A DNA stretch of 64,000 nucleotides from assembly GCF_000963925.1 (NCBI RefSeq), contig NZ_BAMV01000017.1:124001-188000 (forward strand), given 5' to 3'. Position 1 is the stretch's first letter, and every line of letters begins with the position of its first letter. The notes under the pieces were generated by a model. The model made no database searches and was not told the origin of the DNA. It was given only the letters and a program-made list of their open reading frames with translations. Position numbers and translations under genes: made by a program. This DNA is from Acetobacter cibinongensis. GTDB lineage: Bacteria > Pseudomonadota > Alphaproteobacteria > Acetobacterales > Acetobacteraceae. This document shows, piece after piece, positions 7,801-42,202 of the stretch.

Positions 7801-8497
7801 GAAATTCTGCCTGCTTCAACAAGGTTTTTTGTAACAATGGCGCAAATTCTGACAGATGATGAATAACCAGAAGATTTGGCCATTCTGGTACAGGCTCACC
7901 CTTAGCCCGCAGTAACACACACACCATACCGGCATCTACCGCAGCACGTGCGCCTGTATTGCTATCTTCCAACACAACACAATTGGCAGGGTTTACGCCT
8001 TCCTGCTGTGCTGCGTACAGATAGACATCCGGCCTTGGTTTTGGAATCCCCATATCTTGTGCAGAATGGATACGATTTTCAAAATACTGCGTCATTTTAG
8101 TTGCCTGAAACTTGGCTTCCATTTCTTCGCAGGAAGAATTAGAACCAACTCTTACAGGTAAACCAAGTTTCCTGATGTCTTCAAGCATAGCGTGAACACC
8201 ATCAATGGCCTCCACCCCTTGCCGCATAGCCGCGACAAAACGCTTTTTTGTTGCGTCAATCCAGTCTGACGGTAATTGATTTCCTGTTTTTTCTTCAATT
8301 ATTTTTTTAACGGAGGGGAGTGCCATGCCGGAAAATGTTGCAACAGCATTTTTGTCAGATACATCCATTCCGGCAGCACGGGCTTCTTCCGCACTGATAC
8401 GGCAACAGGTTTCCTCACTATCTACCAGAACCCCATCACAATCAAATATGACCAGCTTGAGCTGGCCATCCGGAGAAAGAGCGAGTGGAGCTGCCAT
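7790..8497 (-). CDS. HAD-superfamily hydrolase, subfamily IA (phosphatase/phosphoglucomutase-like)
   Basis: A 235-residue haloacid-dehalogenase-type protein. Motif I is FDCDGVLVDSE with the nucleophile and acid/base aspartates, motif II is the VGSNSS strand, the motif III lysine lies in GIPKPRPDVY, and motif IV is VVLEDSNTGARAA. A helical cap is inserted after motif I, as in subfamily IA phosphatases and beta-phosphoglucomutases. The substrate is unknown. The ATG overlaps the hemE stop codon (TAATG), and its own stop lies inside hemJ, so expression is coupled to heme synthesis genes. This may be only a convenient operon position, or it may hint at removal of a phosphorylated by-product. Confidence 0.86.
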   Translation of the reverse strand: MAAPLALSPDGQLKLVIFDCDGVLVDSEETCCRISAEEARAAGMDVSDKNAVATFSGMALPSVKKIIEEKTGNQLPSDWIDATKKRFVAAMRQGVEAIDGVHAMLEDIRKLGLPVRVGSNSSCEEMEAKFQATKMTQYFENRIHSAQDMGIPKPRPDVYLYAAQQEGVNPANCVVLEDSNTGARAAVDAGMVCVLLRAKGEPVPEWPNLLVIHHLSEFAPLLQKTLLKQAEFHGV

Positions 8498-9576
8498 TAT
8501 TCTGTCTCCCTGACAGTTTTGACCAGCTCTTCTACATGTTCAACTGGTGTTTGTGGCAAGACGCCATGGCCAAGGTTAAAGACATGAGCACGGCCTTTAC
8601 CAGCATTCCTCACGCTTAACGCTTCACGCCGCATGGCTTCACCGCCAGACAGCACGGCAAGTGGGTCCAGATTGCCTTGCAGCCCAATATGCTCAGGGAT
8701 CAGTGTGCGCGCCAAAGACAGATCAGCCCCGGTATCAAGCGCTACAACATCAACCCCAGTTTCACGGGCGTATTCAGGCACAAGCATACCACCAAGACGC
8801 GGGAAACCGATAACACGCACTGTGGGGTGTTTCGCCTTGATCGTTTTTACAATTTGCCGTGTTGGCGCAATGACATGCTTGCGGAATTCAGAAGGCGGAA
8901 GCAGCCCTGCCCAGGAATCAAACAACATCACCGCTTCTGCGCCAGCTTCTATCTGGGCGCACAGGTAATCTGCTGTGGTTTCTGTCAACAAAGCCATGAG
9001 CTTATCAAACAAGGCTGGTTCTGAAAAAGCCATGTCGCGGGTTACGGCAAACTCTCGTGAGCTACCGCCATCAACCATGTAGCAGGCAACGGTAAAGGGA
9101 GAGCCGGTAAAACCAAGTAATGTTGTTGCGCCAGCCTTTGCGGCACCAATATTTTCTACACCATTTAATGTTTTGTGCAGGCGGCTGAGAGTTTCCAAAA
9201 CAGGTGCCGTTGCTTCGGCAATGCGGTTACGGTCAAGTTTTGCCAGGTCCTGCGCTGTGCGTATGGCACCCAAGACCGGGCCTTTCCCTTCTACAAATTC
9301 CAGTGACTGACCCATAGCCCAAGGCAGGATCAAGATATCTGAAAACAGAATGGCACCATCCATCCCGAACCGACGGATGGGTTGCAGTGTTAATTCTGTT
9401 GCAATGTCCGGTGTCATGCATCGTGTCAGAAAATCTGCCTTTGCACGCATGGCGCGGAATTCAGGCAAAAAACGTCCGGCCTGTCTCATCAACCACATCG
9501 GAGGGGGCCACAGGGCCTCACCATTCAGAGTTCTGAGAAGGCGTTTCGCGGAGGGGATGTGTGAGTTGCTGTTCAT
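8497..9576 (-). CDS. hemE: Uroporphyrinogen decarboxylase
   Basis: A 359-residue enzyme that removes four acetate carboxyls from uroporphyrinogen III to give coproporphyrinogen III. The N-terminal signature PPPMWLMRQAGRFLPEFR and the substrate-binding ILFSDILILPWAMG segment with its conserved aspartate are present, as are GFTGSPFTVACYMVDGG and the C-terminal GLQGNLDP and FNLGHGVLPQTP motifs. Length is normal (about 340-360). hemE is the first gene of the hemE-HAD-hemJ operon, and its promoter must lie within the origin-like intergenic region to its right. In Caulobacter and Rickettsia hemE flanks the chromosomal origin. Confidence 0.97.
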   Translation of the reverse strand: MNSNSHIPSAKRLLRTLNGEALWPPPMWLMRQAGRFLPEFRAMRAKADFLTRCMTPDIATELTLQPIRRFGMDGAILFSDILILPWAMGQSLEFVEGKGPVLGAIRTAQDLAKLDRNRIAEATAPVLETLSRLHKTLNGVENIGAAKAGATTLLGFTGSPFTVACYMVDGGSSREFAVTRDMAFSEPALFDKLMALLTETTADYLCAQIEAGAEAVMLFDSWAGLLPPSEFRKHVIAPTRQIVKTIKAKHPTVRVIGFPRLGGMLVPEYARETGVDVVALDTGADLSLARTLIPEHIGLQGNLDPLAVLSGGEAMRREALSVRNAGKGRAHVFNLGHGVLPQTPVEHVEELVKTVRETE

Positions 9577-9944
9577 GCTCAGCAGTCCTGCACGTCTTTT
9601 CCCACGCTGTCCACGCCCCCTTAAATATAAAATAAGAGATAGAAATGATTGTTGAGAGTAGTAGGTACTGTGGATGACGGGGTACCCAGCATTCCAAAAA
9701 TGTACCCCAGCTTTCCCACAGTGTGTACAGTTTACAGATGCTTGAGAAATAAGGTATTTTTCGACTTATCCAGAAAACTCCACAGAGAGGCTGTGTACAA
9801 CTCACCGGTTCATGAGTCTTGAGAGTTGTGCACGGTACTCGGTACGCCGTTGTCATGATCGCCGTACAATCCACATGTACCCCGGTACTCATGACAGTAC
9901 TCACAGCCCCTATTTTACGCAGTACCTGAAAGAGACTCGTAGCG
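9577..9944. other. Candidate chromosomal replication origin (oriC) between hemE and maf
   Basis: This 368-bp gap separates divergent hemE and maf. It contains DnaA-box-like sites: TGTGGATGA (9669-9677, the complement of TCATCCACA, one mismatch to TTATCCACA), TTATCCAGA (9766-9774, one mismatch), and weaker ones CAATCCACA (9867-9875), TGTGTACAA (9792-9800) and TTTCCCACA (9712-9720). An AT-rich patch at 9621-9650 (26 of 30 bases A/T) could be an unwinding element and includes TTAA-N7-ATAA, one base off the CtrA consensus. TTGAGAGT occurs twice (9652-9659, 9819-9826). GTAC occurs 12 times in the gap and twice more at the start of maf. GANTC occurs at 9814 and 9934. Genes to the left are mostly minus-strand and to the right mostly plus-strand, as expected around an origin. 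Confidence 0.65.
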
Positions 9945-10577
9945 ATGACAGATTTAGTACTGAAACCGACTCCATTACAGAACAGTGATTCGTTGCTAGT
10001 ACTAGCGAGCGGATCTGTTACAAGAAGACATCTGCTGAATAGTGCAGGGCTTTCCTGTTCTGTCATGCCTCCAGACCTAGATGAAACCGAGCTTAAACAA
10101 AAAGGCAGTGCAGAAGGGTGGAGTGCAGCAGAAATTGCCCTCCGGCTGGCTGAAGCAAAAGCGCTGGCTGTGCAGAAGCCAGACGCCTTTGTTATTGGCG
10201 CAGACCAGGTGCTGTCCTGCAACGGGACGCTTTATGACAAACCTGCATCCATCAACGCGGCGCGGCAGCAACTTGAAGCTTTGAGGGGGCAGACACATAC
10301 GCTGCATACAGCAGTGGTTGTGTGCCATCAGGGACAAGTGGTCTGGCATCATGTGGCAGAGCCAAAACTGACCATGCGTGCCTTCTCATCCCTATTTCTG
10401 GAAGCCTATCTGGCGGAAGAAGGGACACGGTGCCTCTCTTCCGTAGGCGCTTACCGGGTAGAGGGGCCGGGGCTGCATTTGTTTGAACGCATTGAAGGCG
10501 AGTATGCTGCTATTCTTGGCTTGCCGCTTTTCCCGCTCCTGCACGCTTTGCGGGACAGAGGGGTCATACTTTCCTGA
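9945..10577 (+). CDS. maf: Maf-family nucleoside triphosphate pyrophosphatase
   Basis: A 210-residue Maf/YhdE-type house-cleaning pyrophosphatase, expected to hydrolyse non-canonical or excess nucleoside triphosphates to monophosphates. The N-terminal LVLASGSVTRRHLL matches the SxSxRR phosphate-binding loop. The DLDET segment follows, and FVIGADQVL carries the conserved catalytic aspartate; YDKPAS and SSVGAYRVEGPG are further family blocks. The C-terminus (IEGEYAAILGLPLFPLLHALRDRG) is typical. The ATG at 9945 has only a weak upstream purine run. In many alphaproteobacteria maf sits next to the origin with aroE, coaE and dnaQ behind it; here tRNA-Ala and an exporter follow instead. Confidence 0.9.
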   Translation: MTDLVLKPTPLQNSDSLLVLASGSVTRRHLLNSAGLSCSVMPPDLDETELKQKGSAEGWSAAEIALRLAEAKALAVQKPDAFVIGADQVLSCNGTLYDKPASINAARQQLEALRGQTHTLHTAVVVCHQGQVVWHHVAEPKLTMRAFSSLFLEAYLAEEGTRCLSSVGAYRVEGPGLHLFERIEGEYAAILGLPLFPLLHALRDRGVILS

Positions 10578-10661: not shown

Positions 10662-10737
<76 letters not shown>

Positions 10738-41728: not shown

Positions 41729-42202
41729 ATGCAGGATATCCGAAAGGCCCTCTATGTGGGAAACCGCAGTGACGGCGAACTGATACAGCGGCCTATGTCG
41801 CCGCATTTGCAAATCTACCGTAGTCGGCTTTCTATGGTTCTCTCCATTTCGAACCGTATTACGGGCGTTGTGGCAACAGGTGGGGCTGCCTTGGGCGTGT
41901 TCTGGCTGTCTGCCGCTGCCAAAGGGCCGAAGTCTTTTGAAGTTGCGCGGAAAGTAACAGGCAACCCGGTTGGCCAGCTTGCGCTGGTTGGGTGGCTTGC
42001 TTCCGTCGTGTTTCATACTGTGGGTGGTATTCGCCACCTGATCTGGGACAGCGGTTACCGCTACGACAAGGCCGAAATTAATAAGGACGGCCCAATTGCT
42101 GTTGGTGTCACGGCTGGCGTGAGCACGGCTCTCGCTGCTGGCCTTCTGACAGTAGCCTGTGGACGCTCACGCAAGCGTGCGAAAATTGGGAAGGCATCCT
42201 GA
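41729..42202 (+). CDS. sdhC: Succinate dehydrogenase cytochrome b556 subunit
   Basis: A 157-residue membrane anchor of complex II. RPMSPHLQIYR near residue 21 and SNRITGVVATGG are the family signatures; His96 and His103 in FHTVGGIRHLIWD include the heme b ligand. Three hydrophobic helices are visible. It is the first gene of sdhCDAB, with sdhD one base downstream of its stop. Confidence 0.95.
   Translation: MQDIRKALYVGNRSDGELIQRPMSPHLQIYRSRLSMVLSISNRITGVVATGGAALGVFWLSAAAKGPKSFEVARKVTGNPVGQLALVGWLASVVFHTVGGIRHLIWDSGYRYDKAEINKDGPIAVGVTAGVSTALAAGLLTVACGRSRKRAKIGKAS

Follow-up and report, generated by a model that had tools for sequence, protein, structure and literature searches.

A conserved GTAC-rich module at the putative replication origin of acetic acid bacteria and a candidate GTAC methyltransferase that accompanies it

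Introduction

The origin of replication of enterobacteria is marked by Dam, GATC and SeqA. In the window, by which we mean the whole 64-kb stretch of Acetobacter cibinongensis DNA that was analysed, a different short palindrome, GTAC, is densely packed into the gap between hemE and maf. The original prediction regarded this gap as a candidate origin and compared the cluster with GATC at enterobacterial oriC. The locus therefore raises the question whether the GTAC sites are a methylation mark of a replication origin, cores of binding sites, modified DnaA boxes, elements of the neighbouring promoters or a product of chance.

A dense GTAC cluster between hemE and maf

A direct count in the window sequence gave 14 GTAC within 338 bp, and all coordinates in the original prediction proved exact. 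When 338-bp segments were compared across 288 kb of this contig, the densest one contained 14 GTAC and began at the first of these sites, while the runner-up contained 5. The density of the cluster is thus as high as had been claimed, and no segment of equal density was found in these 288 kb. GTAC is not generally common in the window, since 111 copies were observed in its 64 kb versus 124 expected from dinucleotide shuffles. Three GTAC with no more than 30 bases between neighbours occur at 23 places in the whole genome, seven of which are in the origin region. The predicted extension of the cluster into the start of maf is reflected in codon choice: within the first 12 codons of 29 related maf loci, all 29 Val codons are GTA, versus 40 of 381 elsewhere in the gene. 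The corresponding Fisher p of 1e-25 overstates the evidence because these loci are related.

The GTAC-rich module, a putative oriC of acetic acid bacteria, spans positions 9621..10002 of the window and lies between the leftward hemE and the rightward maf, reaching into the first maf codons. The reading frame at 8497..9576 on the minus strand (359 aa) is taken, following the original prediction, to be hemE, encoding uroporphyrinogen decarboxylase; a match was found in 145 of 150 genomes of the family. The frame at 9945..10577 on the plus strand encodes a maf-like protein of 210 aa, named after the original prediction, with a match in 49 of 49 genomes of the genus. Directly 3' of maf is a tRNA-Ala (GGC) at 10662-10737.

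The module begins with the most AT-rich 40-mer of the gap (9621..9660, 80% AT), a candidate DNA-unwinding element, within which a CtrA-like match with one mismatch is located at 9621. Site 0 (GGTACTGTGGAT, 9665..9668) adjoins a DnaA box, TCATCCACA, at 9669..9677 on the minus strand with one mismatch to TTWTNCMCA. The TGTGGAT..CGGGGTACC block at this box is the part common to the wider family. Site A (9682..9685, in GGGGTACCC), which one large clade of outer family genomes has as well, is followed after 20 bp by site B (AAAATGTACCCC, 9702..9705) and after a further 23 bp by site C (TGTGTACA, 9725..9728); a DnaA-box-like TTTCCCACA with one mismatch lies between the latter two at 9712..9720 on the plus strand. 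Another DnaA box with one mismatch, TTATCCAGA, is found at 9766..9774 on the plus strand. Site D (CTGTGTACAACTCAC, 9795..9798) lies 70 bp after C and reads TTGTACACA on the reverse strand, one mismatch from a DnaA box. Sites E and F, 7 bp apart (GGTACTCGGTACG, 9835..9845), are followed by site G (CCGTACAATCCACA, 9864..9867), by sites H and I (ATGTACCCCGGTACTC, 9877..9888) directly after CAATCCACA, by site J (AGTACTCACA, 9897..9900) and by site K (AGTACCTGAAAG, 9922..9925). The last two sites are within maf, namely L at 9957..9960 (codons GTA CTG) and M at 9999..10002 (codons GTA CTA), the latter common to only few of the aligned relatives. Altogether, the gap and the maf start contain six DnaA boxes with one mismatch each and no perfect one, in addition to the AT-rich 40-mer.

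Conservation and distribution of the module

The cluster is not specific to this strain, as it occurs in 49 of 49 genomes of the genus and in 34 further genomes of the family; the orthologous gaps of relatives do carry it. The genus genomes (30 loci, 18 further loci and G117, which corresponds to L019) have 8-15 GTAC per 350 bp. Outside the genus, 31 further family genomes have at least 6 GTAC at hemE, so that the 80 genomes with the cluster at this place range from 6 to 15 per 350 bp. Three genomes with a relocated module, described below, bring the number of cluster genomes to 83.

The spacing of 20 bp from A to B and 23 bp from B to C is kept in 33 of 33 loci of our site table, with a fourth site about 70 bp later. 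This table includes L079 and L077, with a GC content of only 35% and 30%, respectively; excluded were L018, which duplicates G030, and L116 (G100). The latter has 6 GTAC without the 20/23/70 spacing, and two genomes of the genus, G186 and G187, have 8 GTAC each without the A-B-C spacing. L040 and L042, which are not part of the table, are included in the 31 further family genomes by their GTAC counts. Long stretches of conserved sequence are apparent when 29 genus loci are aligned, and in the 33-locus table the flanks of sites A, B, C, D, E and H are conserved. These flanks differ from site to site and are yet conserved at each, as exemplified by GGGTACCC, ATGTACCCC, TGTGTACAAC and GGTACTCGGTAC.

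A search for the pattern of the three core sites in 84,980 species, with one genome per species, returned at least 119 matches, and those listed all belong to Acetobacteraceae. Among the matches listed are Acetobacter (38), Gluconobacter (21), Gluconacetobacter (10), Komagataeibacter (8), Bombella (8), Asaia (7), Commensalibacter (6) and others. Of these 119 listed matches, 118 have at least 7 GTAC in 350 bp, and the remaining one is truncated where the stored sequence ends. The origin region was covered in 90 of the 145 family genomes with a hemE match (30 loci and 60 fetched regions), and 50 outer family genomes have 0-5 GTAC in the gap. From the other families of the class, 40 of the 85 genomes with hemE were sampled, and their best 350-bp window upstream of hemE contains 0-2 GTAC. 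Hence, the cluster is not a general alphaproteobacterial trait. The module can serve as a clade marker and is a candidate for origin vectors.

Position of the module at the replication origin

In the contig of the window, the minimum of the cumulative GC skew over 288 kb is at position 133371 (window position 9371), and the first GTAC follows 294 bp later at 133665. Three other genomes, G032, G118 and G101, possess the methyltransferase described below and have only 0-1 GTAC beside hemE. A whole-genome pattern search located their modules 20-26 kb away from hemE (G032:C21:59534, G118:C28:887196 and, in G101, L397). In G118, the skew minimum over 400 kb is at 886445, which is 751 bp from the module at 887196, with hemE near 912 kb and thus 25 kb away. 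In G101, the minimum over 140 kb is at 41988, the module starts at 42196 (208 bp) and hemE is near 62 kb, 20 kb away. The G101 module lies between two unrelated genes, presumably a gluconate-dehydrogenase-like and a GMC-oxidoreductase-like gene, and has kept the 20/23/70 spacing. The switch in GC skew therefore coincides with the module in all three genomes tested (G000, which is the genome of the window, G118 and G101), in each case within a stretch rather than a whole chromosome. The GTAC module travels as a unit and the GC skew follows it, which strengthens the original proposal of a candidate origin. We conclude that the module is almost certainly the chromosomal replication origin, oriC.

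In the genome of the window, dnaA is located on a different contig from the module. Two genome papers, in the parts accessible to us, locate the oriC of Acetobacter strains in the vicinity of dnaA (PMC3751514, PMC13209655), and the accessible part of the second gives a distance of about 51 kb between ori and dif (PMC13209655). The skew minimum found here argues for the GTAC module. The module would thereby reveal where the genuine oriC lies in a group of industrial use, in vinegar and bacterial cellulose production. A search of the open-licence literature returned no report that combines GTAC, Acetobacteraceae and a replication origin; judged by titles and the beginnings of abstracts, the open-licence papers that combine two of GTAC, N4-methylcytosine and Acetobacter included none on the origins of acetic acid bacteria.

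A second GTAC cluster upstream of dnaA was looked for and not found: between positions -350 and +60 relative to the dnaA open frame, 20 genomes have 0-2 GTAC each, so that this region is not enriched.

A methyltransferase that co-occurs with the cluster

An orphan methyltransferase of about 284 aa with a PF01555 domain (E 1.8e-45) is encoded on another contig of the same genome (G000:C111:34414-35262, minus strand). In a panel of 30 genomes, all have a strong CcrM-like PF01555 match, and it is this second PF01555 enzyme that tracks the cluster. At a threshold of E 1e-30 the enzyme was found in 71 of 150 family genomes. A match is likewise present in 49 of 49 genomes of the genus, and in 0 of 113 genomes from other families of the class. 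Of the 71, 18 fall outside the 90 genomes whose origin region was examined. The methyltransferase is present in 83 of 83 cluster genomes, in G193 only as a copy of 51% identity.

This divergent copy (G193:C1:408478-409227) is the only match in its genome and lies about 10 kb from maf; another one, with 55% identity, is found at G152:C1:2003435-2004202. In four genomes, one TGA is located inside the methyltransferase match, and in L540 and L541 this TGA is the regular stop codon of a frame of 286 codons.

Three genomes, G066, G029 and G116, have no methyltransferase match at E 1e-30, and no such cluster was found in them by the whole-genome pattern search. In the DnaA tree they are placed among the acetic acid bacteria, on long branches of unsure position. 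At most two loss events fall within this group, each of them on such a branch. Factors other than the methyltransferase may explain why these genomes lost the cluster, since their DnaA is more divergent and they carry other PF01555 enzymes.

The surroundings of the gene were compared in 20 loci. A putative Tim44-like gene is found no further than about 2.5 kb away in 18 of them, and a putative Smr-like gene is nearby in 15. Because these neighbours recur, the methyltransferase looks like an inherited resident. A profile for RsaI-like endonucleases gave no match in the 20 loci. A query with the endonuclease of phage Syn19 returned nothing in 289 genomes of the class, an empty answer that had no positive control and shows little.

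The motif SPPY marks m4C methyltransferases. The orphan enzyme has TSPPY versus DPPY in the CcrM-like enzyme of the same genome, and the two are 25.5% identical. In two cyanophage species, a homologue of the methyltransferase overlaps a gene that was named R.RsaI endonuclease by the depositors, and the phage endonuclease matches the REase_II model with E 1.6e-11. Among 64 viral relatives, many of them near-copies, 43 have an RsaI-like endonuclease gene in the fetched stretch according to tblastn. A profile built from the tblastn hits detected one in 44 of the same 64 loci, namely in 39 of the 53 loci found with the phage enzyme and in 5 of the 11 found with the bacterial enzyme. The match of L514 to this profile (E 2e-17; methyltransferase 48% identical) is independent, because L514 was not among the tblastn hits. 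L512 (55%) was among them, and the closest viral relative, L511 (65%), is without an RsaI-like endonuclease gene.

M.RsaI and RsaI form a restriction-modification system in Rhodobacter blasticus 28/5, and M.RsaI makes m4C at GTAC, with 87.65% of the motifs detected (PMC6256690). Orphan, lineage-persistent m4C methyltransferases for GTAC, HG10 and HG18, are described for Nitrososphaerales and Methanomicrobiales in the passages available from PMC10609329. From the TSPPY motif, the pairing of viral relatives with RsaI-like endonucleases, the chemistry of M.RsaI and the archaeal orphan precedents, it can reasonably be inferred that the orphan enzyme methylates GTAC as m4C. It resembles M.RsaI in the PF01555 domain, in the m4C-type motif and, via its relatives, in the association with RsaI-annotated endonucleases. 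In contrast to the RsaI system, no RsaI-like endonuclease is present in the 20 loci scanned, and the gene is kept beside the Tim44-like gene. By description, HG10 and HG18 share with it the orphan state, the lineage-wide occurrence and, as predicted for the enzyme here, m4C on GTAC; they differ in being archaeal, and the passages seen mention no link to a replication origin (PMC10609329).

Ancestry of the array

In outer Acetobacteraceae, the gap is flanked by hemE and by a gene which, judging by its motif, is presumably COG1806/PPSR-like. A TGTGGATAACGGGG-like block is common to these outer loci and to some genomes of other orders. Among 40 loci from other orders, at least four (L143, L147, L156 and L170) have GGGGAT directly after it, and part of the Acetobacteraceae have GGGGTAC. 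A tree of 48 outer genomes, which leaves out 3 of 51 loci that have no recognisable COG1806/PPSR frame, contains a clade of 19 with neither the GTAC of site A nor the methyltransferase. Of the other 29 genomes, 28 have site A and 16 the methyltransferase. The ancestral site A persists in all 13 members of its outer clade that are without the enzyme, and where outer genomes do have the enzyme (16 of 16), the gap contains just 1-5 GTAC. A raw comparison of GTAC counts among outer genomes (means 1.8 and 0.7, p 0.001) is significant but confounded by kinship, and pairs of independent lineages gave no significance. The array was enlarged later in the acetic acid bacteria.

The Caulobacter origin is in the gap between hemE and COG1806, according to the accessible part of PMC1914354. 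The module described here is likewise beside hemE, except for the three genomes in which it is relocated, the TGTGGATAACGGGG block is common to some of these origins, and outer Acetobacteraceae keep the COG1806/PPSR-like gene. It differs from the Caulobacter-type origin in the GTAC array, in the maf-like gene that occupies the far side in the genus, and in the absence of exact CtrA (TTAA-N7-TTAA) and IHF sites, of which none was found in any of 31 cluster loci.

A proposed methylation-marked origin and its alternatives

We propose that an orphan N4-cytosine methyltransferase of the M.RsaI type would target GTAC. An origin packed with about 12 of these sites would be fully methylated before firing and hemimethylated after passage of the fork, and its methylation state would tune orisome assembly, re-initiation or the binding of a reader. 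The cluster, its conservation, its position at the skew minimum, its relocation together with the origin and its co-occurrence with the methyltransferase were shown computationally; that the sites are methylated in vivo, and that this influences initiation, is what we infer. Such a system would be an independently evolved counterpart of Dam and GATC at enterobacterial oriC. That the oriC of acetic acid bacteria is marked by an orphan GTAC m4C methyltransferase, with the methylation state affecting initiation, is in our judgement somewhat favoured by the evidence. A more elaborate version is rather tentative, with the odds slightly against it. Here, the RsaI-type enzyme would write m4C on an array that was built site by site around the ancestral DnaA-box block, a putative reader or DnaA would sense hemimethylation, and loss of the enzyme would lead to loss of the array and a return to perfect DnaA boxes.

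The likeness to GATC at oriC that had been suggested originally is a fitting one, since the cluster co-occurs with a methyltransferase whose homology points to recognition of GTAC. The Dam/GATC origin would be the nearest known kind, here with another word, modification type and lineage. A dense, conserved short palindrome at oriC and a solitary, chromosomally inherited methyltransferase are common to both systems, with matching specificity being presumed for the enzyme studied here. The differences are GTAC instead of GATC, an m4C-type instead of an m6A modification, a PF01555 enzyme, the alphaproteobacterial lineage and a region before dnaA that is not enriched. We know of no SeqA counterpart or other reader for m4C at GTAC. 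Competition between SeqA and Dam at oriC is described in the available part of PMC5390034. Should the proposal hold, origins marked by methylation would have evolved on more than one occasion, using another word and another base modification, and the logic of once-per-cycle initiation could be compared across independent inventions.

Several observations speak against methylation, namely the persistence of site A in 13 of 13 outer genomes without the enzyme, the low number of GTAC in 16 of 16 outer genomes with it, the lack of GTAC enrichment before dnaA, and the conserved flanks at several sites, which would be superfluous if GTAC were no more than a methylation target. Conservation of the flanks suggests bound proteins. 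Due to this counter-evidence, we assign no more than a modest preference to the methylation-marked origin and leave a real, if minor, share to a binding protein that acts independently of methylation. In that case GTAC would be the core of sites for a clade-specific origin-binding protein, an accessory factor or repressor of the initiator, and methylation would be incidental or absent. Such a protein would fit the conserved flanks at A, B, C, D, E and H, the 20/23/70-bp spacing kept by all 33 loci of the table, the 13 genomes that retain site A without the methyltransferase, and the TGTGGATAACGGGG block, which certain genomes of other orders have at this position with GGGGAT replacing GGGGTAC. 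However, the flanks differ strongly among sites (GGGTACCC, ATGTACCC, GTGTACAA, CGGTACTC and CAGTACTG), so that only the 4-bp palindrome is common to all of them, and 83 of 83 cluster genomes have the methyltransferase. On the whole, we regard this explanation as rather unlikely.

It is doubtful, and less probable still, that the GTAC sites are drifted DnaA boxes (TTATCCACA to TTGTACACA and GTACCCC). A DnaA of altered specificity was favoured at first because TTGTACACA resembles TTATCCACA, and the minus strand of site D, with the sequence TTGTACACA, departs from TTWTNCMCA at a single position. In addition, the genomes without the cluster have more perfect boxes in their hemE-side gaps (16 in G066, 4 in G116 and 3 in G029) than the 34 cluster loci (0-2), and their DnaA is more divergent. 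On the other hand, GTAC overlaps DnaA-box-like 9-mers in 131 of 366 cases versus 140.2 expected from circular shifts. In an alignment of 30 DnaA sequences, inspected by eye, domain IV shows no difference that sets 21 genomes with the cluster at hemE and the 3 relocated ones apart from 3 outer genomes, and no change of DNA contacts specific to the cluster species. The clearest changes in this domain fall in genomes without the cluster, and in G029 and G116 one residue is missing beside the helix-turn-helix. An altered DnaA specificity is not supported by the domain IV alignment and the overlap count, and modified DnaA boxes, one of the explanations offered originally, are not supported as a general one. 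The TGTGTACA sites may nevertheless act as weak DnaA boxes.

The gap upstream of hemE in L087 (G066, a 2.0-Mb genome) contains its 16 perfect TTWTNCMCA boxes within 570 bp.

Promoter or leader elements of hemE or maf, rather than replication, would explain why the sites lie between divergent genes and enter the start of maf. Since the module moves together with the skew minimum, a role confined to these promoters is excluded: it is 20-26 kb from hemE in G101, G118 and G032, with the skew minimum at the module in the two of them that were tested, and we consider this reading refuted as the main explanation and very improbable. Chance or base composition, for which no support was found, has practically no probability left in view of 14 GTAC versus the next-best 5 in 288 kb and of clusters in gaps ranging from 30% to 69% GC.

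Two minor observations concern single groups or genomes. In L061-L064, which represent one species group, an alignment inspected by eye shows a perfect palindrome, GTGAGTACTCAC, at GTAC site J. The SlmA-site consensus of gammaproteobacteria resembles GTGAGTACTCAC; we treat this resemblance to an SlmA-like site as a coincidence. G116, which is without the origin array, has a short tandem array of GTACT repeats at G116:C1:536876-536914.
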